A stretch of DNA of 64,000 bases, taken from positions 8,680,001 through 8,744,000 of the forward strand of contig NZ_CP109149.1 of assembly GCF_035920345.1 (NCBI RefSeq). Direction: 5' to 3'. The notes below the pieces were generated by a model. The model was not told where the DNA came from. It did no database searches and worked only from the letters and a program-made list of their open reading frames with translations. Position 1 is the stretch's first letter, and every line of letters starts with the position of its first letter. A program made the position numbers and the translations under genes. The stretch is from Nocardia vinacea (GTDB lineage Bacteria; Actinomycetota; Actinomycetes; Mycobacteriales; Mycobacteriaceae). Of the stretch, positions 6,144 through 54,168 are shown piece by piece.

Positions 6144-6506
6144 TCAGGCGGCGAGTGCCATGAGGTTGGGGACAGCGCTTGCTTGCGGCGCGGCCTGCCG
6201 GGCGAAGGCGAGCCGACGTTGAGCGCGCAATTCGTCGGCCACCTGCTCGGTGAGGCCGAACAGGGTGGTGCCGAGCGCACCGGCCAGCGCCGCGATCATC
6301 TCGCTCGACGGTTCTTTACGGCCGCGCTCCACCTCGGACAGATACTGCGGCGATATGCCCGCGCGACCGGCGGTTTCGACGAGGGTCTCGCGTTGCTCCT
6401 GCCGCAGCGTGCGCAGCCGTTCGCCGAGTACCTCGCGCCACAGCGGTTCCTCGGTGTGTCGAGGTCGGTCGTCGCGTCCGCCCTGGATCGAGTGCAGCTC
6501 GGTCAT
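6144..6506 (-). CDS. PopR/ClgR-like XRE-family activator with SsrA-like C-terminus
   Basis: This 120-residue DNA-binding protein has a Cro/CI-type helix-turn-helix: TLVETAGRAGISPQYLSEVE followed by RGRKEPSSE, the signature shared by actinobacterial ClgR and PopR, which activate clp genes. It ends NLMALAA, closely resembling the SsrA degradation tag terminus (ALAA). In Streptomyces such Ala-Ala tails make PopR and ClgR substrates of ClpP, giving feedback control. It is convergent with the clpP pair, and its likely binding sites are the tandem elements at 4803-4830. Assignment to PopR rather than ClgR rests on the adjacent clpP3/clpP4-like pair. Confidence 0.85.
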   Translation of the reverse strand: MTELHSIQGGRDDRPRHTEEPLWREVLGERLRTLRQEQRETLVETAGRAGISPQYLSEVERGRKEPSSEMIAALAGALGTTLFGLTEQVADELRAQRRLAFARQAAPQASAVPNLMALAA

Positions 6507-6572
6507 AGGGAGAGCCTACGACCGCGGCCGCTGATCCGGTCGGGCATTACGCTGTGGGCGGACAAACCGACG

Positions 6573-6604
6573 AAGGCCCCATGTCCAACGGACACAGGGC
6601 CTTT
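6573..6604 (-). terminator. Strong hairpin terminator after the small secreted protein gene
   Basis: AAGGCCC (6573-6579) pairs with GGGCCTT (6597-6603), and inside it TGTCC (6582-6586) pairs with GGACA (6590-6594). It lies 16 bp past the stop of the minus-strand gene at 6620 and ahead of the regulator promoter, so it insulates the two. Confidence 0.8.
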
Positions 6605-6619
6605 CGCATCGAGTCGAGA

Positions 6620-6862
6620 TCAGGGCAGCGGAATCCACTGGCCGAAGAACCAGAAGCCGTGGCCCTGGGGCTGCTGATCATGCCGCTGCTGGTCCTGACG
6701 CTGATCCCCGCGCTGCTGATCGTGGCCCTGCTGTTGCTGCTCGATACCCGGACGCTGATCCTGCCCCGGAGCGGCGCTCGCCACACCCGCGCCAACGCCC
6801 AGCAGGCCGACCAGCACACCGCCCGCGATCGCACCCTTCGCCAGCTTCGACTTGATCTTCAT
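6620..6862 (-). CDS. Small secreted Gln/Asp/His-rich protein
   Basis: An 80-residue precursor. I place the start at the ATG at 6862 because AGGAGG lies 8 nt upstream and because residues 1-32 then form a textbook Sec signal: basic MKIKSKLAKG, hydrophobic GGVLVGLLGVGAGVA, and an ASA-A cleavage site. The mature part of about 48 residues is Gln, Asp and His rich (QQQQGHDQQRGDQRQDQQRH) and ends in the aromatic tail GFWFFGQWIPLP. Small secreted proteins of this style are common in Nocardia; function is unknown. It has its own terminator. Confidence 0.75.
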   Translation of the reverse strand: MKIKSKLAKGAIAGGVLVGLLGVGAGVASAAPGQDQRPGIEQQQQGHDQQRGDQRQDQQRHDQQPQGHGFWFFGQWIPLP

Positions 6863-7072
6863 CCACGTTCCTCCTGTTGTCGGGTCTCCATCCGAGACCG
6901 TCGACCCGTTCGATCCGGACCGACAAGACAATCTTGGAATCGCAAGATTTGCGCACCCTAGCCCGTGGCTGTGAGTTAGCTGGGACCCATCCGCACTTAC
7001 TGCGCGAGCTGTTCGCAGACGCGATAGGTGGTCATGATGTTGAGGCGATGCAGGTTTGTTTAACCTGAGCCA

Positions 7073-7260
7073 ATGACCGTGACCCCGCCACGTCGCGTCG
7101 GCCGCCCGCGCAAGGACGAGGCAGGCGACACCCGTGCGTTGCTGACGATTGGTCTACCTGCACGGCCGGCGCCGCCCGCGCCGAAGGCCGTCGCCGCGCC
7201 CACGATCACCTGGTCTTCTTCCTCGGCGCAGTGCTGCGCGACTAACGATGACCTCCCTCG
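7073..7260 (+). pseudogene. Relic of a TetR-family regulator (N- and C-terminal ends only)
   Basis: ATG at 7073 opens MTVTPPRRVGRPRKDEAGD followed by TRALL, a typical TetR/AcrR N-terminus just before the first helix. The frame then loses all TetR character. In another frame the last stretch reads AHDHLVFFLGAVLRD and stops, which looks like the C-terminal helix of the same family. The simplest reading is an internal deletion of about 150 codons with loss of frame. It precedes the dehydrogenase at 7314, which it may once have regulated. A small unrelated ORF cannot be excluded. Confidence 0.5.
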
Positions 7261-7313
7261 ACGACACCCATGACATCCGGGGCGGACTGTGCCCCGAAGG
7301 AAGGAGATAGCAA

Positions 7314-8162
7314 ATGGCCATCCGCAAGGTGACCGTCCTCGGAACTGGGGTACTGGGATCGCAGATCGCATTCCAGACCGCATTCCACGGATTCGATGTC
7401 ACCGCCTACGACATCAGCGACGAGGCCATCGCCGGTGCTCGCGACCGTTTCGCCAAGCTCGCGGCGACCTATCGCATCGAAGTGCCGGGCGGTGATAGCA
7501 AGGCCGAGAAGACCGAGGCGGGCATTGTCCTGACCACGGATCTGGCCGCGGCGGTGCAGGATGCCGACCTCGTGATCGAGGCGGTGCCGGAGGTGCTCAC
7601 CATCAAGGAGCAGACCTACCGGCAGCTGGGCGAACTCGCGCCGGCGAAGACGATCTTCGCCACCAATTCGTCCACCCTGCTGCCCAGCGATATCAAGGAC
7701 TACACCGGCCGCCCCGACAAATTCCTCGCACTGCACTTCGCGAATCTGGTGTGGCGGTACAACACCGCCGAGGTGATGGGCACGCCCGAGACCGATCCGC
7801 AGGTCTTTCGGGCGGTCGTCGAGTTCGCCGTCGGGATCGGCATGGAGCCGATCGAATTGCACAAGGAGAAGGCGGGTTACGTCCTCAATTCACTGCTCGT
7901 GCCGCTGCTCAACGCGGCCATGGCGCTCGGCGCGGGCGGATTCGCCGAACCGGAGGCGGTCGACAAAACCTGGCGGATCGGCACCGGCGCACCGGTCGGC
8001 CCATTCCAGATGCTCGACGTCATCGGCCTGACCACCCCCTACAACATCCTGGTCAACAGTGCGGAGGGGCAGGAACTCGCGACCTGGCTCAAGACCAACT
8101 ACATCGATAAGGGCAAGCTCGGCATCGCCACCGGGGAGGGTTTCTACAAGTACTCCGAATAG
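7314..8162 (+). CDS. 3-hydroxyacyl-CoA (3-hydroxybutyryl-CoA) dehydrogenase-like protein
   Basis: This 282-residue cytosolic NAD-dependent dehydrogenase probably oxidises L-3-hydroxyacyl-CoA to 3-oxoacyl-CoA. The N-terminal Rossmann domain shows GTGVLG (10-15) and an Asp33 acceptor for the adenine ribose (AYDIS). IEAVPE (88-93), TNSST (117-121), His141 in ALHFANLVW and Glu153 in TAEVMG correspond to the usual active-site segments. The C-terminal all-helical domain carries AGYVLNSLL and GTGAPVGPFQMLD. HFANLVW differs from the more usual HFFNP, so substrate range may differ. AAGGAGATAG precedes the ATG. It stands alone, so its pathway is not evident. Confidence 0.88.
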   Translation: MAIRKVTVLGTGVLGSQIAFQTAFHGFDVTAYDISDEAIAGARDRFAKLAATYRIEVPGGDSKAEKTEAGIVLTTDLAAAVQDADLVIEAVPEVLTIKEQTYRQLGELAPAKTIFATNSSTLLPSDIKDYTGRPDKFLALHFANLVWRYNTAEVMGTPETDPQVFRAVVEFAVGIGMEPIELHKEKAGYVLNSLLVPLLNAAMALGAGGFAEPEAVDKTWRIGTGAPVGPFQMLDVIGLTTPYNILVNSAEGQELATWLKTNYIDKGKLGIATGEGFYKYSE

Positions 8163-8301
8163 CTCACGGCACGACCACTGGATACTTTTCGAGGTCGATG
8201 CACCCGATCACAAGCCGCTCAGCCGTATCGCTGACGCAGAGCCGATGAGGACCCCGCATAGCCAAATACCCTATGCGCGATAGTCATTCGCTCTGCGACA
8301 G

Positions 8302-9444
8302 CTATTCCGGCGCGGGCTCGGGTTCGGGGGATTCGTCGGGTGGTGCGGTGACGACGTCGATCTGCTCGCCGAGGTAGCGAGCCACCACCGCGATGACGGC
8401 CGCTACCGGTACCGCGAGGAAGGCGCCGACGACGCCGTAGAGCGAGGCGCCCGCGGTGATCGAGACCAGGACCACCACGGCATGCAATTTCATGGTGCGG
8501 CCCTGCAAAACCGGTTGCAGCACATTGCCTTCCAATTGCTGGACGGCGATGATGATACCGAGCACGATCAGCGCGGTGGTGACGCCATTGCCGACCAGTG
8601 CCACGAGCACCGCCAGCGCCCCGGCGACGAATGCGCCGACCATCGGCACGAAACCGCCTATGAAGGTGATCACCGCGAGTACGAGTGCCAATGGGACATG
8701 CAGGATCACCAGTCCGGCGCCGATGAACACCGCGTCGATCAGACTCACCAGCGCCTGGACGCGGATGAACCCGCCGAGGGTGGACCAGATCCGATTCAGC
8801 AGCTCCTCGAGGTGCCTGCCGCCGCGACTGCCGAGTACGGCATGCAGCCACGGCAGCAGCCGTGGACCGTCCTTGATGAAGAAAAACGCCAGTACCAGCA
8901 CCAGGAACAGCGTCACCAGCGTGGAGGTCGCGGTGGTCACGCCGGTGAAGACGCCCGAGGCGATCTGTTCCGAACTGGACTTCAGCCGCTGCGTGATCGC
9001 GTCCACCGCCGCTTGCAACTGCTCGTCGCGTATGCGCAGCGGCGGACCGTGCAGCCAATCCCGCACCTTGTTGACACCCGCGGTGGATTTGTCGGCCAGC
9101 TCCGGGGCCTGGTCCACGACCGACGGAACGATCAGGGCGATGACACCCGCGAGGACTCCGATGAATCCGAGCAGACTGACCGTTGCCGCAGCGCCCGGCC
9201 GAAAGCCGTGCGCGGTGAGCCAGCGGGTCGGCGGCCACAATACTGTCGCGATGATCAGCGCCAGCGCGATCGGCAGCACGACCACCCACAGGGCGGCGAC
9301 GACGGTGCCGAGCACCCACGCGCCCGCAGCGATCGCCACAATGCACAGCGACCATTTGGCCAGCCAGATGAGTCCGGCGCCGATCGCGTCGCCGCGGTCG
9401 CGGGTCGGTGGTCGATTCTTCTCGGTGCCGTCCTGCTCACTCAC
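8302..9444 (-). CDS. AI-2E/PerM-family (UPF0118) membrane permease
   Basis: About 380 residues from the GTG at 9444; a longer frame begins at 9492 but would overlap the upstream gene by 44 nt. The family pattern is clear: paired N-terminal helices (LIWLAKWSLCIVAIAAGAWV; VVVLPIALALIIATV), a periplasmic amphipathic region (residues about 100-170), then a helix cluster with FLVLVLAFFFIKDGPRL, FIGGFVPMVGAF and a C-terminal pair. The family exports small molecules or ions, and the substrate cannot be read from sequence. The stop codon of the PAP2 gene lies 5 nt upstream of this start, so the two genes are almost certainly cotranscribed. Confidence 0.85.
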   Translation of the reverse strand: MSEQDGTEKNRPPTRDRGDAIGAGLIWLAKWSLCIVAIAAGAWVLGTVVAALWVVVLPIALALIIATVLWPPTRWLTAHGFRPGAAATVSLLGFIGVLAGVIALIVPSVVDQAPELADKSTAGVNKVRDWLHGPPLRIRDEQLQAAVDAITQRLKSSSEQIASGVFTGVTTATSTLVTLFLVLVLAFFFIKDGPRLLPWLHAVLGSRGGRHLEELLNRIWSTLGGFIRVQALVSLIDAVFIGAGLVILHVPLALVLAVITFIGGFVPMVGAFVAGALAVLVALVGNGVTTALIVLGIIIAVQQLEGNVLQPVLQGRTMKLHAVVVLVSITAGASLYGVVGAFLAVPVAAVIAVVARYLGEQIDVVTAPPDESPEPEPAPE

Positions 9445-9448
9445 GCCG

Positions 9449-10825
9449 TCAGTCTGGCACGGGAGACAGCCGGGCGGTGCCATCATCGGCACGCTGCGCA
9501 GGACTCAGCGGGTCAACCTTTACCGAGTCTTTTGCGGCGAACCAAGTCCGGTAGAAGGTGAACGCCAGTGCGGCGAAGACACCAAGAATCGCGACGCCGA
9601 ACGGGAGCGGGTAGTTCGCCATCGGCAGTGCGAAGAAGCGCACGCACAGCAGCACCCCTGCGAAGGTTGCGATACCGAAGGCCACCATCTGGGCGCGACC
9701 GCGGTCCCAACCCCGGTCCGGATCGCGCAGGACGGATTCGACGGTCAAGCACAGCGCCGCGCCCGCGACGAGGTCGACGCCGTAATGCGCCCCGAGGCCC
9801 AGCGTCGCGACGAGGGTGCAGACCAGCCAGAACGCACCACCCCAGCGCAACCAGAGCGGCCCGCGCCGAGAGTGGATGAACAGCGACAGCGCCCACGCCG
9901 TATGCAGTGACGGCATGCAGTTACGCGGTGTGATGCCGTCGAAGGGCATCGAATCGACCGAGGACGGCAGTGCCGGAACGATATTCGGCCAGACATCGGC
10001 GAGTTCGAAACCCTGCCCCTCCGGGCCGAACGCGAGCACCGGCCCGACCACCGGGAAGACCACATAGAACAGCGGGCCGACCACACCGAGGGTCAAGAAT
10101 GTGCGCACCAGATAGTGCCGCGGCCATATACCCGCGGTGACGCCGCGCAGTTGCCACGCCGCGACCACAATGGCCGCGACCGGCAGTTCGAAATACACCC
10201 AACGCACCACACCCAGCGGTACCGGTCCCGCTGCGTCGAGTGCCTGTCCGACGAGCCACGACGGATTGCCGAGCGCGTGATCGGCCAGTTCCGCATAGGG
10301 ATCCAGCACGGTCGGGCAGGCCCATGCGGTGATGTCGAGCCAGATCTCGCCGACCTTCGTCGCCAGAATCAGCAGCGCACCGAGAGCGATTGTGCGCAGC
10401 GCGGTTTCGCGCCGCGCACCGGTCCAGCGCACGGCGGCGATCACCGCCAGCGCGGTGAGCACAATGGTCGGACCGTTGCCGACCGTGAACAATCGCCCCT
10501 CGATCGCGCGAATGATCACGAAGACCACATCGATGCCGACCGCGGCCGCCAGCGCGCGCACCCGCACATTCCAGGAGACACCGATCAACGCCAGCAGAAA
10601 CCCGGCCCACGGCGTGGTCGCCGATTTGGGCCGCCCGACATAATCCCAAGAAAGACTGGTCAGCGGCCCGAGCGCATTGATATGCACGGCCATCAACTGC
10701 CCTGCGATCAACACCACCACCGCGACCGCGATACTGCCCCAGATCAACCGAGTTCGCCACGGACGCGCAGTCCCCACTTCCCCCGCAGGTGCAACCGATC
10801 TCTCCTGCGCGCCCTGAATCAACAT
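9449..10825 (-). CDS. PAP2-superfamily membrane phosphatase/transferase
   Basis: The 458-residue multi-pass membrane protein carries a C-terminal PAP2-type catalytic pair: CMPSLHTAWALSLF (phosphatase SGH-like motif PSLHT) and LGAHYGVDLVAG (terminal His-x3-Asp motif). About twelve hydrophobic helices are visible. Family members dephosphorylate lipid phosphates or move phospho-inositol groups; here the substrate is unknown but cell-envelope lipid metabolism is likely in this organism. The C-terminal tail beyond the last helix is soluble. It is followed directly by the AI-2E-type permease. Confidence 0.85.
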   Translation of the reverse strand: MLIQGAQERSVAPAGEVGTARPWRTRLIWGSIAVAVVVLIAGQLMAVHINALGPLTSLSWDYVGRPKSATTPWAGFLLALIGVSWNVRVRALAAAVGIDVVFVIIRAIEGRLFTVGNGPTIVLTALAVIAAVRWTGARRETALRTIALGALLILATKVGEIWLDITAWACPTVLDPYAELADHALGNPSWLVGQALDAAGPVPLGVVRWVYFELPVAAIVVAAWQLRGVTAGIWPRHYLVRTFLTLGVVGPLFYVVFPVVGPVLAFGPEGQGFELADVWPNIVPALPSSVDSMPFDGITPRNCMPSLHTAWALSLFIHSRRGPLWLRWGGAFWLVCTLVATLGLGAHYGVDLVAGAALCLTVESVLRDPDRGWDRGRAQMVAFGIATFAGVLLCVRFFALPMANYPLPFGVAILGVFAALAFTFYRTWFAAKDSVKVDPLSPAQRADDGTARLSPVPD

Positions 10826-46308: not shown

Positions 46309-48528
46309 ATGTCCCGGTATCTGTTCGCCCTCGGCCAGGTCGTAGCGCGTCGTCGCTGGTGGGTGCTGGCACTGTGGATCGTCGGGCTGGTCGGCGCGAT
46401 CGGTTTCGCCGCCGGCGCCGGTGGCAAGACCAACGACAACTTCACCGTCCCCGGCACCGAGTCGCAGGATGCCGTGTCATTGCTGCAGCAGCGGATGCCG
46501 GCATTCAGTGGCGCGCAGATGCAGGTTGTTTTCGAAACCCCCGGCATGGTCAAGGTGACCGACCAGCAAGTGACCGCCGAGATCGAACAGGCTATGGCGG
46601 GGTTGAAGGGACTGCCGCAGGTCGCGGCGGTCGTCGATCCGTTCCAGGCGCAGGCGGTGTCGCCGAATCAGCGCGTGGCACTCGGCAGTGTGCAGTTCTC
46701 GGTGTCGGCGGGTGAGGTCGGCGAGGAGACCCTCGACGAGGTGGATCGCGTCGCCGACTCGGCTCGCGATGCCGGTCTAACGGTGGAATTCTCCGGTGCG
46801 GTGTATCCGGGCTTCACGGCCGAGATCCCGCATACCCCGGAGATTCTCGGCATCGTCGCGGCATTCATTATCCTGCTGATCACCTTCGGTGCGGTGGTCG
46901 CCGCCGGACTGCCCATCATTACGGCGTTGGTGGGTGTGGGTATCGGGCTTACCGGGATTCTGGGCGTGGCCGCCTTCGTCGATGTGGCCTCGGCGGCGAC
47001 GTCGCTGGCGCTGATGCTCGGCCTGTCCTGTGGGATCGATTACGCGCTGTTCATCCTGTCGCGGCATCGGCACCAGATCGTGCTGGGCATGGCCGCGGCC
47101 GAGTCGATTCCGCTGGCGGTCGGAACTGCGGGCAGCTCGGTGGTGTTCGCGGCGATAACCGTGATCATCGCACTGTGCGGCCTGGCGGTCGCGGGCATTC
47201 CCTTCCTCACCGTCATGGGGCTGACGGCAGCGGGTGCGGTGCTGGTCGCCATGCTGGTCGCACTGACACTGCTGCCCGCGCTACTCGGCTTCGCCGGCGA
47301 TATGGTCGCCAAGTTCATCTCGCCGCCGCTGCATCCGGGAAAGGCGGAGGAGGTCGCGCGCATCGCCGCCTACGAGCCCGAACGCACATTCGGGCACGCG
47401 TGGGGCCGATTCGTCACCCGATTCCGGATCCCGATGCTGGTTCTCGGTATCGCCATTCTCGCCGCACTGGCCATCCCGGCCACGCGCATGGACCTCGGAT
47501 TGCCCAGTGGTGAAACGCAATCGGAGTCGAGCACCGCGCGCAAGGCATACAACATCGTCAGTGGGTCGTTCGGCCCCGGTTTCAACGGACCACTGCTGGT
47601 TGTCACCGACCTGTCGGCCGCTACCAGCCCGGACGCCGCGCAAACACTGATGGGCCGACTGCGGCAGGTGCCCGACGTCGCCGCCGTCCAGCCCGCCGGC
47701 TCCGACAACGGGTTGCTGCTGGTGCAGGTCATCCCGAAGACCGGTCCCAACGACTCCGCGACCACCGATCTGGTGCACCGGCTGCGTGACGATCGTGACA
47801 GCATCGAAAGTGGCACCGGCGCAAAGTATCTCGTCGGTGGCACGACGGCAGCGAATATCGACACCTCGAACCAGTTGGCTAAGGCGCTGCCTATCTTCCT
47901 CGCGGTTGTCGTGGGTCTGGCGCTGGTATTGCTCACGATCGCGTTCCGCACGATTCTCGTCCCGCTGTCGTCGATCGTCGGATTCATCCTGTCGGTCTTC
48001 GCCGCCCTCGGCGCACAGGTTGCGGTATTCCAATGGGGGTGGGGTGCAAGCCTTTTCGATGTGACCAAGGCGCAGACGCTGAGCTTCCTGCCGATCATCA
48101 CGCTGGCCATCATCTTCGGCTTGTCCAGTGACTATCAGATCTTCGTGGTATCCCGGATCAAGGAGGAGCACACGCGCACCGGTCAGGCGATCAGTTCGGT
48201 GCAGAACGGCGTCGCGCACTCCGCGCGCGTCGTCACCGCCGCGGCGCTGATTATGTTCGCGGTATTCGTCGCCTTCACCACCACCGATAATCCGATCGTC
48301 AAACCCTTGGCGTTCACCCTGGCGGTCGGTGTCCTGCTCGATGCCTTCATCGTCCGGCTGACGCTGGTACCCGCGGTCATGGCCATCATCGGAAACCGCA
48401 TGTGGTACCACCCGCGCTGGTTCGCGCGCTACGTCCCCGACCTCGACATCGAGGGTGTCGAACTCGAACGCCGATTCAGCCACGACACCGAAGCCGAAGT
48501 GCCGCAAGACATTACCGGTGTGTCATGA
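46309..48528 (+). CDS. MmpL-family RND transporter
   Basis: 739 residues with GAGAGGA before the ATG. The RND layout is clear: helix 1 (RRRWWVLALWIVGLVGAIGF), an extracytoplasmic domain (about 45-165), helices 2-6 including LMLGLSCGIDYALFILSRHR, a second extracytoplasmic domain (about 395-525) and helices 7-12 with FGLSSDYQIFVVSRIKEEH. The paired G-x-D-Y(A/Q) motifs in helices 4 and 10 are the proton-relay tyrosine/aspartate positions of MmpL proteins. These export lipids or other hydrophobic compounds across the inner membrane. No MmpS partner or regulator is adjacent. Confidence 0.92.
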   Translation: MSRYLFALGQVVARRRWWVLALWIVGLVGAIGFAAGAGGKTNDNFTVPGTESQDAVSLLQQRMPAFSGAQMQVVFETPGMVKVTDQQVTAEIEQAMAGLKGLPQVAAVVDPFQAQAVSPNQRVALGSVQFSVSAGEVGEETLDEVDRVADSARDAGLTVEFSGAVYPGFTAEIPHTPEILGIVAAFIILLITFGAVVAAGLPIITALVGVGIGLTGILGVAAFVDVASAATSLALMLGLSCGIDYALFILSRHRHQIVLGMAAAESIPLAVGTAGSSVVFAAITVIIALCGLAVAGIPFLTVMGLTAAGAVLVAMLVALTLLPALLGFAGDMVAKFISPPLHPGKAEEVARIAAYEPERTFGHAWGRFVTRFRIPMLVLGIAILAALAIPATRMDLGLPSGETQSESSTARKAYNIVSGSFGPGFNGPLLVVTDLSAATSPDAAQTLMGRLRQVPDVAAVQPAGSDNGLLLVQVIPKTGPNDSATTDLVHRLRDDRDSIESGTGAKYLVGGTTAANIDTSNQLAKALPIFLAVVVGLALVLLTIAFRTILVPLSSIVGFILSVFAALGAQVAVFQWGWGASLFDVTKAQTLSFLPIITLAIIFGLSSDYQIFVVSRIKEEHTRTGQAISSVQNGVAHSARVVTAAALIMFAVFVAFTTTDNPIVKPLAFTLAVGVLLDAFIVRLTLVPAVMAIIGNRMWYHPRWFARYVPDLDIEGVELERRFSHDTEAEVPQDITGVS

Positions 48529-48534
48529 CGCCCG

Positions 48535-48620
48535 CTAGCCGAGTAGCGCGTGCTCCTCGGTCACGAAGTAGGAGGACTGCGCCAGGGCGATGAAGTTCTT
48601 CTCGTCTTGGTTGAGTCGAT
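48535..48620 (-). pseudogene. C-terminal tail of an unidentified gene (fragment)
   Basis: On the minus strand the last codons read LNQDEKNFIALAQSSYFVTE, then EHALLG and a stop at 48535, with strong GC third-position bias as in real genes. The sense is lost upstream at about 48615, where the opposite strand becomes coding-like. Probably a truncated gene end; identity unknown. Confidence 0.4.
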
Positions 48621-48870
48621 TACCCGCGCGTTCATCCAGGCAGTCGCCGGAGACGCCGCACTGATCGCCGCCGACCTCGAGGAAGCCGGAACGCTCGCGG
48701 CCGCCGCAGTCATTAACGGCGACGGCCTTCGATCGGCACGCTATCTGCGCTACCTGAGCGACTTCCACAACCAGATCCCCGCCGGCGCCACACGCCACCC
48801 CGCGCTCGCGGAATTCGTCGACCTCATGCACACGCACTACCCGGCAATCGTTGCACCCCAACAGCGCTGA
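48616..48870 (+). pseudogene. C-terminal fragment of an unidentified helical protein
   Basis: From about 48616 to the stop at 48870 this frame has strong coding bias and a protein-like sequence: ITRAFIQAVAGDAALIAADL, LRSARYLRYLSDFHNQIPAG, ALAEFVDLMHTHYPAIVAP. The preceding codons back to a GTG at 48550 lose this character, so I regard it as the 3' part of a gene cut at about 48615, head-to-head with the minus-strand fragment. A short intact gene of 106 codons is the alternative. Confidence 0.45.
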
Positions 48871-48907
48871 TCTGTGGATACTGTGCGGGGCCATGACGAT
48901 GTCGTCT

Positions 48908-49489
48908 TCACTCGCCACAGGCCTGCCCCGCACCAGCGGGTGTGCTGGGGGTTTTTCGGAAGATCGCTGCGAATTCCTCGGCCAGCAGTCCGTAGAGTGC
49001 AAGGTCGGCGGGTGCGCCGTGTACAAGTCGAGCATTTCGTGCGACGCCCTCCCGAATCGCGCCGATGGACTCGCACGCTGCCACCGCGGCGGAATTCTGG
49101 GTGAGAATCCAAGAATACATTCGGCGAAGTCCCATAACCTCGAAGCCGAACCGGGCGAGTAACTCGCCCGCCTCTGCGCCCAGGCCGCGGCGACGATTGT
49201 CGGTTTCGCCGATGGCGATTCCGAATTCGGCGGACCTGTCTTCGGGGCTTTGATGACTGAGCGATCCGAGTCCGATCGGTGCGCCGGAGTCCATCATGCA
49301 GAAGATGAAAGTCGCATTGTTGTACGACACTTGTTCATAGCTGGCGATCCATTGCGTCCACATCCTCTTTGAAGAGGGGTAGCGATAACCGACAGCGAGC
49401 CGAAACGACTCCTCTTGAAACCATTTGTGCAGAACCTCTACATCACTCTCCTCGGGAGCCCTGAGCGCTACTGTCGTACCTCTGATCAC
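48908..49489 (-). CDS. GNAT-family N-acetyltransferase
   Basis: 193 residues from the GTG at 49489, which has GGAGAT upstream. RimJ/RimL-like GNAT pattern: VALRAPEESDVEVLHKWFQE at the N-terminus, FGIAIGETDNRRRGLGAEAG as the acetyl-CoA loop (R/Q-x2-G-x-G/A, here RRGLGAEA), and NSAAVAACESIGAIREGVAR as the last helix-strand pair. It would acetylate an amine, a protein N-terminus or an antibiotic; substrate unknown. It is downstream of the small-peptide gene at 49640, separated by a hairpin. Confidence 0.85.
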   Translation of the reverse strand: MIRGTTVALRAPEESDVEVLHKWFQEESFRLAVGYRYPSSKRMWTQWIASYEQVSYNNATFIFCMMDSGAPIGLGSLSHQSPEDRSAEFGIAIGETDNRRRGLGAEAGELLARFGFEVMGLRRMYSWILTQNSAAVAACESIGAIREGVARNARLVHGAPADLALYGLLAEEFAAIFRKTPSTPAGAGQACGE

Positions 49490-49576
49490 CGCAGATCTCC
49501 TTGCTGAAAGAAACCAAGTCCAGTACCGGCCGGGCGCAGGCTGACCGCCGTGTCCGCGCGAGAGCGCGCTGCGCCG

Positions 49577-49612
49577 AGGGCTTGCCGACGACACTTCTTT
49601 TTCGGCAGCCCT
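49577..49612 (-). terminator. Hairpin after the 49-residue peptide gene
   Basis: AGGGCTTGCCGA (49577-49588) and TCGGCAGCCCT (49602-49612) pair with one bulge. It lies 28 bp past the stop of the peptide gene at 49640 and before the acetyltransferase, but there is no T-run. Confidence 0.5.
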
Positions 49613-49613
49613 C

Positions 49614-49900
49614 AGTTCCAGCCCGCGCGAAAACAGTCGTCAGAGCGGAAAAGGCGGACAGGTCAAGCAAGGCGGGAAAGGCCCAGGCAGGGGAGGGATA
49701 ACCAGGGGGACGAAGAGCGCCCGAAGCATCTCGGGAATCTCCAATGCCGCGATGAGGCCCCCCAGCCACGTCAAATCCAGTACAAGCATCTTTATCTCTT
49801 CTATTTATGGGATGGTTCATGACCACATTGGCTACTCGCTCGCTCACGAAAGAACATCGTGTGCTGAGGTACGGGATCCTCGAACGTTTCCAGGCGCAGG
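49614..49900 (-). repeat. Direct repeat copy A (small-peptide unit)
   Basis: About 287 bp that resembles 50200-50495 in the same orientation. Shared blocks include CAGTCGTCAGAGCGG, the peptide frame, the stretch CCATCCCA before the ribosome site and the upstream block GTTTCC with flanks. It covers upstream region, gene and trailer, so the whole unit was duplicated and then diverged. Confidence 0.85.
49640..49789 (-). CDS. Small hydrophobic Pro-tailed peptide, copy A (49 residues)
   Basis: 49 residues. It begins MLVLDLTWLGGLIAALEIPE, continues MLRALFVPLVIPP and ends in a Pro-rich tail with two Cys (PFPPCLTCPPFPL). The upstream AGAAGAGATAAAG is a plausible ribosome site. The paralogue at 50251 shares MLxLDLTWL, LRxLFVPxVI and a PxPFPP tail. 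Conservation of frame, stop position and the tail in both copies despite DNA divergence supports a translated product. No signal cleavage site is present; the hydrophobic core of residues 8-32 could insert in a membrane. Function unknown. Confidence 0.65.
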   Translation of the reverse strand: MLVLDLTWLGGLIAALEIPEMLRALFVPLVIPPLPGPFPPCLTCPPFPL

Positions 49901-49925
49901 CGACTCCGAAACAAAATCACATCCC

Positions 49926-50168
49926 TTAGAAGGTGATCGTGATCCCGAAAATCGGCTTGTCAAGGCTGCCGCCAACGACGATACCGGTGAAGTTTTCCGT
50001 GTGGCCGCCGACGCCTAAGTAGCCGCCGCTGCCAGGGAAACCAGCGTTGCCAAAAATGCTGCCGTGGCTGAAGGTGCCGAAAGATGCGTCGCCTATGCTG
50101 CCATAGCTGGTGCTATTCGATCCGAGAGCGCCGGGGCTGACGCCGTCAGGGGTGATACTAAGGCTCAT
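49926..50168 (-). CDS. Gly/Ser-rich small protein of unknown function (80 residues)
   Basis: 80 residues with a good ribosome site (GAAAGGAAAATC before ATG). After MSLSITPDGVSPGALGSNST the sequence is Gly, Ser and Phe rich (SYGSIGDASFGTFSHGSIFG; NAGFPGSGGYLGVGGHTENF) and ends in a beta-prone hydrophobic tail (KPIFGITITF). It has no signal peptide and almost no charged residues. It lies between the two hydrophobic peptide genes on the same strand, 82 nt after copy B, so one operon is likely. No family is recognised; a surface, pore-forming or precursor-peptide role would be conjecture. Confidence 0.65.
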   Translation of the reverse strand: MSLSITPDGVSPGALGSNSTSYGSIGDASFGTFSHGSIFGNAGFPGSGGYLGVGGHTENFTGIVVGGSLDKPIFGITITF

Positions 50169-50199
50169 GATTTTCCTTTCGATGTTGCGCTGACGGAAT

Positions 50200-50495
50200 A
50201 GTTCTCAAGCCCGTGCAGTAACAGTCGTCAGAGCGGATAAGGCGGATAGGTCAGAAAGGCGGAAAAGGCTCAGGCCAGATAGTGATAACCCAAGGAACGA
50301 ATAACCCCCGAAGCGTGTCAGAAATCTCCGCGACGACACTCCACAACCACGTTAAATCCAGAATCAACATCTCTATCTCTTTTCCTTGTGGGATGGTTTA
50401 TGACGACACTGGCTCCGACGAGCGGTCTCACCGGCTCGTCGGAAGCGAATGTCGTGTGCCGAGGTCTGGGGCTTCTCGACCGTTTCCGGGCGTGT
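50200..50495 (-). repeat. Direct repeat copy B (small-peptide unit)
   Basis: The counterpart of 49614-49900, same orientation, imperfect. The two copies flank the gene for the Gly/Ser-rich protein. No terminal inverted repeats or target duplications were seen, so this is a gene duplication rather than a mobile element. Confidence 0.85.
50251..50370 (-). CDS. Small hydrophobic Pro-tailed peptide, copy B (39 residues)
   Basis: 39 residues starting MLILDLTWLWSVVAEISDTL, then RGLFVPWVITIWPEPFPPF. It is a paralogue of the 49-residue peptide, with Trp in place of several small residues and without the Cys pair. The upstream sequence AAGGAAAAGAGATAGAG parallels that of copy A. It is the second gene after the 185-residue protein on this strand, 136 nt downstream of it. 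It is too short to appear in standard gene calls. Confidence 0.65.
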   Translation of the reverse strand: MLILDLTWLWSVVAEISDTLRGLFVPWVITIWPEPFPPF

Positions 50496-50506
50496 TCCGG
50501 GGTGGT

Positions 50507-51064
50507 TCACGCCACCTTGAACGTGAACCTGTACAGGCCGCCGTCTCCCGCGAAGTGCTCAACGGCTGCGGGGTTACTCGTCGCCTGCAGTTGCAGGCGG
50601 CGCGGCGGGCCGAGCTCGTCGTCGTTGCCCAGCGGGAACTCCATCGCGCGCTTGTTGAGAACTCGTAGCGTCTCGCGGACCGTGGCAGCGAGCACAGCGG
50701 TCCGGAGGGCAGTCGGTTGCCCAAGGGTGCGAGACAGGGTCAGCGCCCATTGCCCTTGGAGGATCTGGTTGTAGGCGCGTCGGACATCATCCACGACGTC
50801 GCGACCGTTGTCCTTCTCGATCAACTGGAGGACATACAGGGACCGGGGGTCGTAGGCCGCTATGGCGATGTCGCCGCGGCGGGTTTCGCCGGTGTCCATG
50901 TCGTCCCAGAAGTCGTACCCGCCGTGGACCGTGAATTCGGTCTGGGTGACGACGCTGTCGCTGAGCGGGATCTGGCCGCGCCAGGTCAGCAGATAGACAT
51001 CGTCCGAACCCGCCTCGGTGCTCTGCTTGATGCACTTCATCTCATCGACGATCACCTTCGTCAT
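50507..51064 (-). CDS. Hypothetical 185-residue beta-rich protein heading the small-peptide operon
   Basis: 185 residues from the ATG at 51064, with GGAGG 7 nt upstream. The N-terminal half (VDEMKCIKQSTEAGSDDVYL, LTWRGQIPLSDSV, FTVHGGYDFWDDMDTGETRR) is a beta-sandwich-like segment of a type (KCxxxxE...DDxYLL) that I have seen in uncharacterised actinobacterial proteins. The C-terminal half is helical, then ends RFTFKVA. No signal or membrane segment. Two 22-bp iterons lie 91-144 bp upstream. It is probably cotranscribed with the peptide genes below. Confidence 0.7.
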   Translation of the reverse strand: MTKVIVDEMKCIKQSTEAGSDDVYLLTWRGQIPLSDSVVTQTEFTVHGGYDFWDDMDTGETRRGDIAIAAYDPRSLYVLQLIEKDNGRDVVDDVRRAYNQILQGQWALTLSRTLGQPTALRTAVLAATVRETLRVLNKRAMEFPLGNDDELGPPRRLQLQATSNPAAVEHFAGDGGLYRFTFKVA

Positions 51065-51154
51065 CACTTGCCTCCATTCCGATGTCCCGACCCGCGCCAC
51101 TCTCTGTGGGATGACACCAAGCTACGGGCGGAACCGAAGGTGCGCAAGAACCTT

Positions 51155-51208
51155 TGATGTAACGGTTCTATCATGACAAGCACCTCTGATGTCACGGTTT
51201 AAACATGA
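51155..51208 (-). promoter_or_regulatory. Two 22-bp iterons upstream of the 185-residue protein
   Basis: Direct repeats 51155-51176 and 51187-51208 match at 18 of 22 positions (TGATGT-x-ACGGTT-x5-ATGA) and start 32 bp apart, about three DNA turns, placing them on the same face. Such arrays are typical operators for ribbon-helix-helix repressors, and a gene of that family lies just to the right at 51263. Confidence 0.7.
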
Positions 51209-51210
51209 AA

Positions 51211-51239
51211 AAGAGGGGACGGTTCTACCGTCCCCTCTT
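51211..51239 (-). terminator. Rho-independent terminator of the ribbon-helix-helix gene
   Basis: A perfect 12-bp stem, AAGAGGGGACGG (51211-51222) with CCGTCCCCTCTT (51228-51239), has a 5-nt loop, and on the minus strand is followed by TTTTTC. It separates the regulator gene from the iterons. Confidence 0.9.
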
Positions 51240-51262
51240 GCGACCCGACGTTGCCGGGCGAT

Positions 51263-51523
51263 TCAGGCGTTGTGCGACTCTGCTGCGCGCATTGCTTCAG
51301 CCGCTTCTAGGAGTTTCCGCTTCCGCTCGTCCATCAACTGTTCTATCTGGACGGGATCTAAGGCTTTGCGGATGCCTTCGAGGAGGAATTCGCGCGCAAG
51401 TTCGGCGACCGGGACGCCGCGAAGGATCGCGATCTGCTCTAGTAGCTGGTAGTCCTTCTCGCGCATTCGTACGCTGAACGTGCTGATGTTGCCGCCCTGT
51501 GGCGATGAAGATCTGCCGGCCAT
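51263..51523 (-). CDS. Ribbon-helix-helix regulatory protein
   Basis: 86 residues from the ATG at 51523 (AGGAGGG at 5 nt). The RHH core is ISTFSVRMREKDYQLLEQIA (beta strand plus helix A) followed by RGVPVAELAREFLLEGIRKA (turn and helix B), then a long charged helix (EQLMDERKRKLLEAAEAMRA). Such proteins dimerise through the strand and repress by binding direct repeats, as in plasmid-partition, toxin-antitoxin and CopG-type systems. Likely targets are the iterons at 51155-51208 or its own promoter; the divergent inverted repeat at 51623 may also be involved. Confidence 0.85.
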   Translation of the reverse strand: MAGRSSSPQGGNISTFSVRMREKDYQLLEQIAILRGVPVAELAREFLLEGIRKALDPVQIEQLMDERKRKLLEAAEAMRAAESHNA

Positions 51524-51622
51524 CGGCCCTCCTGTTGCTGCGCAGGTGTAACGGCGCGTGGGTTCATCCCTATAAAGCCTGACCAAGGTGCGATGAACCT
51601 AGAGCACCGTTGTGTTTGCTAA

Positions 51623-51639
51623 CGAGCATATAACGCTCG
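51623..51639. promoter_or_regulatory. Inverted repeat in the divergent promoter region
   Basis: CGAGC (51623-51627) and GCTCG (51635-51639) flank ATATAAC in an AT-richer segment between the ribbon-helix-helix gene (start 51523) and the divergent acidic-protein gene (start 51673). A candidate operator or core promoter element, weak by itself. Confidence 0.35.
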
Positions 51640-51672
51640 CGTCATAAGCACCATAGAACCGAAGAATCTTAG

Positions 51673-51960
51673 GTGCCAGTTTGTATGCAGGGCTCGAGCC
51701 GGGTCGAGGCCATCCAGCAATTCCGAGCGGAAGTAATCAGATTGACCGATACGACCCCATCACCGTCTGGCATGGACTTCGTGAGCGAGGCCGACCCGGC
51801 AGAGATCGAGACCGAGCTAGAGATCGTGATCGACATCGAGATCGACTTGGCAGAGCTGAATGATGACGAGCGCGAAGACCTCGATCGACTGCATAAGGGT
51901 GCGCTCGAGTTCTTCATCGAGGACGGCATCCGGAAGATCCAGGACTCTGGCGAGATCTGA
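51673..51960 (+). CDS. Small acidic protein divergent from the ribbon-helix-helix gene
   Basis: 95 residues from the GTG at 51673; an ATG at 51685 is the alternative. It is extremely acidic in the middle (AEIETELEIVIDIEIDLAEL) with a helical C-terminus (KGALEFFIEDGIRKIQDSGE). Such acidic small proteins can be DNA mimics or antitoxin-like partners, but here that is only suggested by the divergent regulator. No signal sequence, no known family. Confidence 0.6.
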   Translation: MPVCMQGSSRVEAIQQFRAEVIRLTDTTPSPSGMDFVSEADPAEIETELEIVIDIEIDLAELNDDEREDLDRLHKGALEFFIEDGIRKIQDSGEI

Positions 51961-52335
51961 CCTCCCGCAGTCGGCAATCAAAGCCACACCAAGCCAAGCG
52001 CAGCCTGAAGTGACAGGATGCGGTTTCGGGCTACTGCTCTGCTGGCGGCGATTTTCCTGCTGCGCATCGCAGTACCAACGGCCGCGTCGGGTGCGCGATG
52101 CGCCGGATCGTCCTACCGACCCGCGGGCAGTGTGATCCTGCCTCGCAGCGGCAGCAGGGGAGCGAGGTCGACCGGCGGTTCCCGGGAGCGGAAATGTAGT
52201 AGGTCCAGGCCACCTCGCACGGATCGACGTACCGCAGGTGTGTCTCCTGTTGGGAGATGACGCCGGCGCCGTCTCGCTCGGGGCGGCGGTGATCAGGCGG
52301 CACGCTGCTGCAATGCCCGCATGCCGCGCCGATTG
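51961..52335. other. Stretch without a credible gene
   Basis: About 375 bp. The plus frame 52018-52260 starts with a signal-like stretch (TALLAAIFLLRIAVPTAASG) but degenerates into an Arg/Ser-rich sequence, and the minus frame across 52031-52303 has no recognisable product. It may be decayed coding sequence. Confidence 0.4.
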
Positions 52336-52884
52336 CTACTGCTTGGCCTGGTCCTTCATGTCGGCGCTGTCGGTTTGTGGGGTATGTCGGATGCCGCGCC
52401 AGCCCAGTGGGAGTTGGACGCGGCCTGCGCGGATATCGCCGATGAGGTGCTCGTAGCCGTCACGGACCTCGCTGAGATGGACCCATGCCGAGTGCCGAAG
52501 CTCCTCGCAGTCGGCGTGCAGCACCGTCCACCACGCCTCGGCGTAGGTCTTCGCGACATGACTGATCACCTCACCGAAGGTGTGGGTGTGGCGGCGGGCG
52601 CACCGGCTGTGACGGACGTAGGACGCCGCCCAAGAGTTGATCTTGTCGATGACCTTCGCGATATCCGCATGGAGGGCGGTCTCGGTGACATCGGGTGCAC
52701 GCGGTTGCGGATTCAAAACCGCCGAAATCAGTGCAGCGTGCAGATCACCGAGTTCTCTCGCCCACGCGATCATCGGTAACGGCTCGGTGAGGCGCCCCGC
52801 GATCGCGGCCAACAGCTGATCGGGCGACAGCACAGATGCCGCATCGATCGCGCTATCCCCCGGCACCGCTATAACCGCGTCCAT
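52336..52884 (-). CDS. DUF4254-like protein
   Basis: 182 residues from the ATG at 52884 (GGGGGAT upstream). A helical protein with segments like those of actinobacterial DUF4254 proteins: LSPDQLLAAIAGRL, WARELGDLHAALISAVLNPQ, DKINSWAASYVRHSR, RRHTHTFGEVISHVAKTYAE and HLSEVRDGYEHLIGDIRAGR. The His-Thr-x-x-(hydrophobic)-GE/Q motif is the family's best-conserved part. No known function; no membrane segment. It lies alone between a degraded stretch and the TetR gene. Confidence 0.65.
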   Translation of the reverse strand: MDAVIAVPGDSAIDAASVLSPDQLLAAIAGRLTEPLPMIAWARELGDLHAALISAVLNPQPRAPDVTETALHADIAKVIDKINSWAASYVRHSRCARRHTHTFGEVISHVAKTYAEAWWTVLHADCEELRHSAWVHLSEVRDGYEHLIGDIRAGRVQLPLGWRGIRHTPQTDSADMKDQAKQ

Positions 52885-53234
52885 GGGTGATCCCCCGTAT
52901 TTCTGGAAGCGAGTGCTCACGGCGCTGCTGACCACCATCTGCGGCAGATGTTGACGTAGTGGTCGCCGCTTCGGGCGATACCAGCGGCGCTGTCGCGGAG
53001 GCTGGTCATGCGAACTGTTCGGAGGCTCGTCGTTCGATGACGGCCTCAGTGGGATGGGCGTGCTGAATCATAGGTTGTTGCTCGACTATTTCGAGATGAA
53101 TGGTTGATGCGGCGAGTGCGGCGCGGCGTCTCGGCGCATAATGCTAATACTGACTGCGCACTCAGTCAACGACTGGTCGAGCAGTCGGCCGGTGCTAGAG
53201 TGTCCGGAAATTTGGCCGAGGAGGGGTGGGATCA
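52885..53234. other. Intergenic region between DUF4254-like and TetR genes
   Basis: About 350 bp. It contains divergent promoters and the dyad at 53151. There is an AT-rich segment with CATAATGCTAATAC at 53137-53150 that could supply a -10 element. No gene is seen. Confidence 0.45.
53151..53168. promoter_or_regulatory. Palindromic operator candidate before the TetR gene
   Basis: TGACTGCGCACTCAGTCA has 6-bp arms TGACTG/CAGTCA around CGCACT. It lies 67 bp before the TetR start, overlapping the likely promoter, a usual place for an autorepressor site. Confidence 0.6.
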
Positions 53235-53927
53235 GTGAGTGGGCGTGCGACGGGACCGGGCAAGTCGGGCGCGATTCTCGATATTTTCACGCGCCATGTC
53301 GCCGAGAAGGGCTACGACGGAACCAGCTTCAGTGGTGTCGCAAGCGAGCTGGGCATCTCTCAGGGCCTGATCGTGCATCACTACGGGACGAAGGCGCGGC
53401 TGTTGGAAGCTCTGCATGTTTCCTACATGCGGCGTCGGATCGACGAGGCCGAGCGGATTGTGTCGAAGTTCGCCACGCCGACCGAGCAGCTTGCCGGGCT
53501 GTTGCACGCGGCCATGCTCTATCAGGTGCACGATCGGAATCGGACCGTTGCCTTCCAACGTGAGGTCGCGCGGCTTGCGCAGGAGGCTGAAGATTCCGAG
53601 GGGCGCAAGCTGCGCAGGGATTACATCGGAATCCTGCACAGCGTGGTCGATGCGGGCATTGCGTCGGGTGAGTTCCGCACTGTCGATACCAGCATCCGGA
53701 GCCTGCTCATCTTCGGTGCCGCGCAGTGGGCGTGGACGTGGTTCGAGCCGGAAGGGCGCAGATCCGCCGCGCAGGTCGGTGCCGAACTGGTAGACCTCAC
53801 TCTCGGATCTCTATTGGTGAATCGCAGATCGCTGCCGCGCCTCTGCGACCCCGACGGTCGACTGGTCGCAGGGGTACTCGAGATCATCACCGCCGCCCCG
53901 GAGACACCGAAAGCCGCCTCGGAGTGA
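53235..53927 (+). CDS. TetR/AcrR-family transcriptional regulator
   Basis: 230 residues from the GTG at 53235 (GGAGGGG upstream). The N-terminal helix-turn-helix is complete: FTRHVAEKGYDGTSFSGVAS, then ELGISQGLIVHHYGTKARLL. The ligand-binding C-terminal helices include LLHAAMLYQVHDRNRTVAFQ and GAAQWAWTWFEPEGRRSAAQ. It probably represses itself through the dyad at 53151. The gene it would normally regulate is not intact: an aldo/keto reductase fragment lies right after its stop. Confidence 0.9.
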   Translation: MSGRATGPGKSGAILDIFTRHVAEKGYDGTSFSGVASELGISQGLIVHHYGTKARLLEALHVSYMRRRIDEAERIVSKFATPTEQLAGLLHAAMLYQVHDRNRTVAFQREVARLAQEAEDSEGRKLRRDYIGILHSVVDAGIASGEFRTVDTSIRSLLIFGAAQWAWTWFEPEGRRSAAQVGAELVDLTLGSLLVNRRSLPRLCDPDGRLVAGVLEIITAAPETPKAASE

Positions 53928-53929
53928 TG

Positions 53930-54168
53930 ACCATCCTTCGGAAGATTCCCTGATCGATGCGCTGCGCGAGATCGTCGACATCCACCAGGCCACCCTCGGC
54001 CAGATCGCCCTGGCATGGCTGACCACCTACCACGGCGACACCGTCGTCGCCATACCCGGCGCCACCAAGCCACACCACGCCGAGGAGGCCGCCGGGGCGA
54101 TGAAGGTCGCACTGAGCGGCGAGGAGACCGAACGCCTTGCCGATCTGTCCACAAGGGTCACCCACTGA
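53930..54168 (+). pseudogene. C-terminal fragment of an aldo/keto reductase
   Basis: Directly after the TetR stop, one frame without a proper start reads LREIVDIHQATLGQIALAWL, then TVVAIPGATKPHHAEEAAGA and EETERLADLSTRVTH before a stop at 54168. IPGATKPxHxEE with the QIALAWL helix is the hallmark NADPH-binding end of aldo/keto reductases. About 70 of the usual 300-330 codons are left, so the barrel and the catalytic Tyr are gone. Confidence 0.75.

Follow-up and report, generated by a model that had tools for sequence, protein, structure and literature searches.

The described systems closest to the gene group considered here include the PorA and PorH channel proteins of corynebacteria. As outlined in PMC3792995 and PMC5944148, they lack a presequence and are encoded by paired small genes in mycolic-acid bacteria; the average length is 43 aa for PorA and 57 aa for PorH, and PorACj and PorACur have 40 and 37 aa, respectively. 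Ser is the acceptor of O-mycoloylation (PMC5310785, PMC9233653), a modification reported for PorA and PorH of C. glutamicum, not for all members. The channels described from Nocardia, as PMC9233653 presents them, are of the MspA type, such as NfpA/NfpB. Further points of comparison are the unannotated small proteins of mycobacteria, many of which PMC4633059 assigns to the 5ˊ end of a leaderless transcript, and the DUF6290 (PF19807) ribbon-helix-helix (RHH) regulators.

The window analysed, a stretch of 64,000 nt, covers 8.68-8.744 Mb of the single-contig 10.36-Mb chromosome of a Nocardia and carries the gene group on its minus strand. The group begins with the RHH regulator gene (51263..51523), followed on the same strand by a terminator-like site with a 13-bp stem 3ˊ of that gene (51211..51239), iteron copy 2 (51183..51208), iteron copy 1 (51151..51176), the gene for the 185-aa protein p185 (50507..51064), that for pep39, a hydrophobic acidic 39-aa peptide with a weak coding signal (50251..50370), that for Gly80, a Gly/Ser/Phe-rich 80-aa protein with AAAGGA 5ˊ of its ATG (49926..50168), and that for pep49, a hydrophobic acidic 49-aa peptide (49640..49789). 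The four reading frames reported in the first-pass annotation thus all lie on one strand where it had placed them, and the iterons and RHH gene that it saw ahead of them are both present. A hairpin without a U-tract 3ˊ of pep49 (49578..49611, minus strand), which belongs to a fold of z -2.3, is a candidate operon end; it stands between pep49 and a GNAT acetyltransferase gene (48908..49489, minus strand) that starts with GTG at 49489 after AAGGAG and is probably a separate gene from the peptide operon. Divergent from RHH lies orf95 (51673..51960, plus strand), which encodes an acidic 95-aa protein of no Pfam family. No sigma-70-type promoter was found in 48500-52500. This gene arrangement is genuine, and it corresponds to no named family.

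With PorA/PorH, compared through published descriptions and not through sequences (PMC3792995, PMC5944148), the locus shares peptides in the 37-57 aa range, the missing presequence and the pairing of small genes in a mycolic-acid genus. It differs in its neighbours, which are not groEL2 and ppk2, in an amphipathicity that does not rise above shuffles, in the Pro-rich tail, in the additional genes for Gly80 and p185, and in that the other Nocardia searched gave no convincing relatives. Like the mycobacterial small proteins treated in PMC4633059, the peptides are short actinobacterial ORFs without annotation; those of the window differ in being duplicated and in lying in an accessory insertion. 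The RHH protein resembles DUF6290 regulators in matching the family above its cut-off (33.3 bits versus 27) and adjoining repeated sites, and differs in that no toxin partner is recognised and that p185 and the small proteins would be under its control.

No family for pep39, pep49, Gly80 or p185 was found in Pfam and NCBIfam, PADLOC recognised none of the five proteins submitted to it, and the best PHROGs match is that of p185 to a family of unknown function (E 0.031), which agrees with the earlier statement that the four proteins belong to no named family. Among the titles listed for small proteins and peptides in Nocardia, none describes this group. The closest set consists of P0001 (p185, 86%), P0014 (Gly80, 91%) and P0015 (pep49, 46 aa, 91%), for each of which the longest contig measures 9,370 bp; the three are probably on one contig of that length, and the set would thus travel together at least once, a point that the first-pass annotation had proposed to check. 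P0014 is the one relative of Gly80 and P0015 the one relative of the peptides. The repeat-region DNA (49600-50450) matched one of 150 Nocardia genomes, its own, in which no third peptide copy was found, the two matches being pep39 and pep49. A convincing peptide relative was seen in none of the 149 foreign genomes among 150 from Nocardia, and none of Gly80 in the other Nocardia genomes searched, in searches that scored the best first-look candidates per genome (e.g. 3, 22, 8), so that absence is not proof. Weak matches were frequent: with the own genome included, 56 of 198 genomes had pep39 matches at E≤1, 31 of 150 matched a two-row peptide profile at E≤0.5, and 95 of 198 had Gly80 matches at E≤1. 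The top match outside the own genome has E 0.029 for pep39, 0.0037 for the profile (within a 196-aa frame) and 0.0039 for Gly80. A 32-aa ORF in a genome of another family (G193) ends in the pep39-tail-like APWVLRIWLRPFPPRS, has neither the MLxLDLTWL start nor a ribosome site, and is taken as chance; among the short ORFs at the three other weak-match places (of four, L064-L067), no copy was recognised.

The regulatory part of the locus appears to be older than the peptides. An iteron pattern built from the two 26-nt copies (51151-51176 and 51183-51208), with variable positions set to N, occurs at ≤3 mismatches in only these two places of the 10.36-Mb genome, and a reversed-pattern control gave 0. 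A degenerate, inverted third copy (51653..51674, plus strand) lies 5ˊ of RHH and matches 16/22; when the bases of 51524-51750 were shuffled 2000 times, one shuffle gave as good a match. In the Nocardia genome G030, a relative of orf95 (45% over 73 aa), an RHH gene (60%) and then P0016 follow one another in the same order as in the window, and the contig ends at P0016. P0016 and p185 score weakly against each other, at 9.8 bits by profile and with a tblastn E of 2.6e-5 for a target of 7 kb, and the motif order of P0016 matches that of p185: KSIHCDVETDEVGADE, DPDSAIFIVGLIENDDGD, FDDEVG and GDGGRYELTFE. The cis-region is kept as well, with the terminator hairpin followed by CATG...AAACCGTNACA, the core of iteron copy 2 at the equivalent place, as G030's one iteron; the DNA around the third iteron copy is also conserved. 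This gene order and conserved cis DNA suggest that RHH and p185 were probably linked before the peptides arose; the older unit would then be orf95-RHH-p185 with the iterons, not the peptides, a point missed in the first-pass annotation.

Of 148 Nocardia genomes, 12 have a member of the RHH family, the own genome and G030 among them. When the remaining 10 were examined as 11 regions (tblastn, E≤0.05), the RHH itself and one orf106 match (E 0.015) were found, and nothing for p185, P0016, Gly80, P0014, P0015, GNAT or orf95, so that an RHH gene is by itself no marker of the system. A pep39 match of 12 residues (E 0.045) and a pep49 match of 23 residues (E 0.038) in these regions were taken as chance. 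Another locus, L122, has at 6424-10282 three genes of this RHH family, spaced by 1.5 and 2.2 kb and lying beside oppositely oriented proteins of 182-245 aa; one of the three matches crosses a TGA, probably 5ˊ of its ATG.

The DNA of 48400-54000 was compared with 148 Nocardia genomes and then directly with relatives. The group sits in an insertion of about 3.7 kb (48598..52298) between an MmpL gene (46309-48528, plus strand) and the gene at 52336-52938 (minus strand)/TetR. The insertion is absent from the close relative G117, whose flanks are 94-97% identical and in which window positions 48598 and 52298 adjoin as an empty site. At the same site, G009 (flanks 90-95%) has other genes, including one whose product matches PF11271, 'Porin PorA', with 219.9 bits and, by reading of ORFs, a P450 and a ferredoxin; G045 has, by the same kind of reading, yet another gene set. 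These differing contents mark the site as a plastic spot and the group as accessory cargo, which the first-pass annotation had missed. Window positions 52103-52265 are 84% identical to G009 DNA inside the PF11271 gene (L090 2985-3155) and look like a remnant; PF11271, with 297 positions, would not be the small corynebacterial PorA, the name presumably being shared by coincidence. At the insertion edge, the 47 bp of 52265-52311 have a 91% copy about 29 kb away (G000:C1:8761572-8761617), a possible rearrangement footprint. Part of orf106 (48672-48873) is 83% identical to G090:C18:626597-626792 and is likely a gene fragment brought with the insertion.

We tentatively propose that the locus is an accessory operon under RHH control, to which small and perhaps envelope-associated proteins were added recently. 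The old core would consist of the regulator RHH, of orf95 as the divergent partner, and of p185 as the target. Probable binding sites of RHH are the iterons, which lie between its own terminator and p185, and a site 5ˊ of its own gene, and bound RHH would keep both promoters repressed. In this lineage the transcript would have gained a tail by duplication, around the Gly-rich protein, of a peptide-encoding unit of about 290 bp, whose peptide is hydrophobic, acidic and without a signal sequence. Upon release of RHH, p185, Gly80 and the peptides would be made together from a common transcript, translation of pep39 being the most conditional of these steps, and the peptides may associate with the membrane or the mycolate envelope. 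The hydrophobicity, missing presequence and Pro-rich tail fit such an association, to which the amphipathicity and the AF2 model add no support. The gene group is genuine, although both young and narrow, and its regulator core is modestly interesting. If the peptides are made, it would represent a gene family caught young, with duplicated proteins of about 40-50 residues in an insertion tied to an older regulator module, and thus a clean case of the birth of a small envelope protein and its recruitment by a regulator in mycolic-acid bacteria.

Block alignment confirmed the two direct repeats of about 290 bp, each encoding a short peptide (49 and 39 residues), that had been read from the sequence at first pass. 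One block of 87 nt is 78% identical (49747-49833 / 50328-50414) and one of 49 nt is 86% identical (49617-49665 / 50205-50253), in register at a spacing of 581-588. Unit A (49617..49905) and unit B (50205..50490), both on the minus strand and with approximate outer limits, consist of an upstream region with conserved blocks, the pep49 or pep39 frame, respectively, and a 3ˊ block; both copies begin shortly past the stop of the preceding gene. The peptides are identical in 24 of 38 aligned residues, with a GRAVY of 0.91-1.19, a net charge of -2 to -3 and a best 19-residue hydropathy of 1.21-1.71. By eye, the hydrophobic stretch begins at the N-terminus of both, with no basic n-region, and no GGAGG-type site precedes either. 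The hydrophobic moment of residues 2-26 is exceeded by 18-61% of shuffles, and the AF2 model of pep49 is a single short helix (3-15; mean pLDDT 59). A single base change just past PFPP makes pep39 stop earlier than pep49, and pep39 may be a decaying copy.

It had also been argued that the DNA of the two copies diverged while the protein was kept, which would imply selection. The shared coding sequence has 114 positions, of which 29 differ from copy to copy, 13, 6 and 10 by codon position over 38 codons; seven of the codon differences are silent and 14 non-silent, and dN/dS, the check proposed at first pass, is 0.48. Against random re-placement of the same changes, neither the few amino-acid changes (P=0.117) nor a third-position excess (P=0.44) stands out. 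The lack of such an excess favours the main rival explanation, in which the peptides are not genes, an intergenic stretch of about 290 bp having been duplicated with open frames left over, and only p185 and Gly80 are proteins. Further points on this side are that the flanks are as conserved as the coding DNA (80% in the upstream 45 nt and 86% in the 3ˊ block, which overlaps the last codons of pep49, versus 75% in the shared codons; Fisher P 0.54 and 0.15, respectively) and that a stop is present in only 28-37% of simulated re-placed copies, so that most frames stay open by chance. Codon adaptation, referenced to 16 long ORFs of the window, shows a clear coding bias for p185 (0.68) and Gly80 (0.50) versus 0.27-0.37 off-frame; pep49 comes out almost neutral (0.37 versus 0.34/0.28 off-frame), and for pep39 the values are unfavourable (0.23 versus 0.26/0.35). 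We nevertheless consider this explanation doubtful. The BLOSUM62 score between copies is 123 in the sense frame, the best of six (the other five give 47-94), and exceeds a mutation re-placement null (P=0.011 and 0.042 for the two directions), low values that are optimistic in that several selection statistics were tried on the peptide pair. Within the shared frame there is one gap, with a length of 6 nt. The relative P0015 keeps the pep49 frame open at 91%, with four substitutions and a 3-residue (whole-codon) gap, and is the strongest support for the peptide. Taken together, the evidence for production of both peptides is no more than moderate. The selection argument is partly supported, by the sense-frame similarity and not by the substitution counts, the flanks or the codon usage of pep39; a 'system' with selection on both peptides would be drawn from one orthologue and borderline statistics. 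Should the peptides not be made, the locus would be a warning against reading duplicated short frames as genes.

The frames might alternatively encode regulatory leader peptides, whose Pro-rich tails slow the ribosome and tune the next gene (pep39 for Gly80, pep49 for GNAT). A gene does follow each unit, the tails are of the PPLPGPFPP type, and ribosome stalling at Pro-Pro is treated as established in PMC8129111 and PMC11611912. This mechanism is improbable, however, because no terminator-like site lies between pep39 and Gly80, most shuffles fold more stably than the RNA 3ˊ of pep39 (z +1.2), GNAT lies beyond the hairpin and is preceded by an AAGGAG of its own, and the hydrophobic N-terminal part would go unexplained.

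Leaderless bacteriocins and toxin-type peptides are usually cationic. The short, hydrophobic, duplicated peptides could be read as a type I-like toxin or leaderless bacteriocin with control genes, and the RHH resembles antitoxin-type regulators, its score against the RelB model being 27.9 bits, under the cut-off of 50. Both forms of this idea in the first-pass annotation are very improbable: the bacteriocin is disfavoured by the net negative charge and by the lack of any recognised export or immunity gene among the neighbours, the small toxin by the lack of a recognised antitoxin partner there, and PADLOC matched none of the proteins scanned. We give equally little credence to a lineage-restricted Nocardia system in which the signal-less paralogous peptides and the Gly-rich partner, duplicated in the insertion and switched by RHH and iterons, would form a mycolate-membrane pore or surface layer with no descent from PorA/PorH. 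The PorA/PorH-like pore first suggested, that is, a two-peptide mycolate outer-membrane channel exported without a presequence, is possible and highly improbable: despite the similar size and pairing, its neighbours are p185, Gly80, GNAT and RHH instead of GroEL2 and PPK2, amphipathicity is not above shuffles, pep49 and P0015 have no Ser for O-mycoloylation (pep39 has two), the Nocardia channels described in PMC9233653 are MspA-like, and no convincing relative was seen in the 149 other Nocardia genomes searched.

Relatives of p185 reach beyond the closest set. A p185 relative at 84% comes from Nocardia sp. CA-135953. Thirteen related protein clusters were retrieved at E≤0.01, and the nine that name an organism are all from Nocardia; a single-sequence search found p185 in 2 of 198 genomes, a profile search in 4 of 150 Nocardia genomes (one a partial match at E 0.006), and the profile run across the phylum in 1 of 396, the own genome. 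The predicted fold has strands and two helices (pLDDT 64), and with regard to an MspA-type porin reading (about 20 kDa), none of the 14 alignment members has a Pfam match at E≤1, to the MspA domain or any other. The p185 loci in G009 and G214 have no RHH, no iteron at ≥15/22 and no convincing peptide nearby; a 28-residue pep49 match (E 0.017) on the opposite strand near the G214 p185 gene was taken as chance. The G214 protein (L078 8300-9184, minus strand), which falls in no Pfam family, carries two N-terminal WRWCxKCQGLFFGG...CPAGGxHxxxGSSNYSL repeats before its p185 domain.
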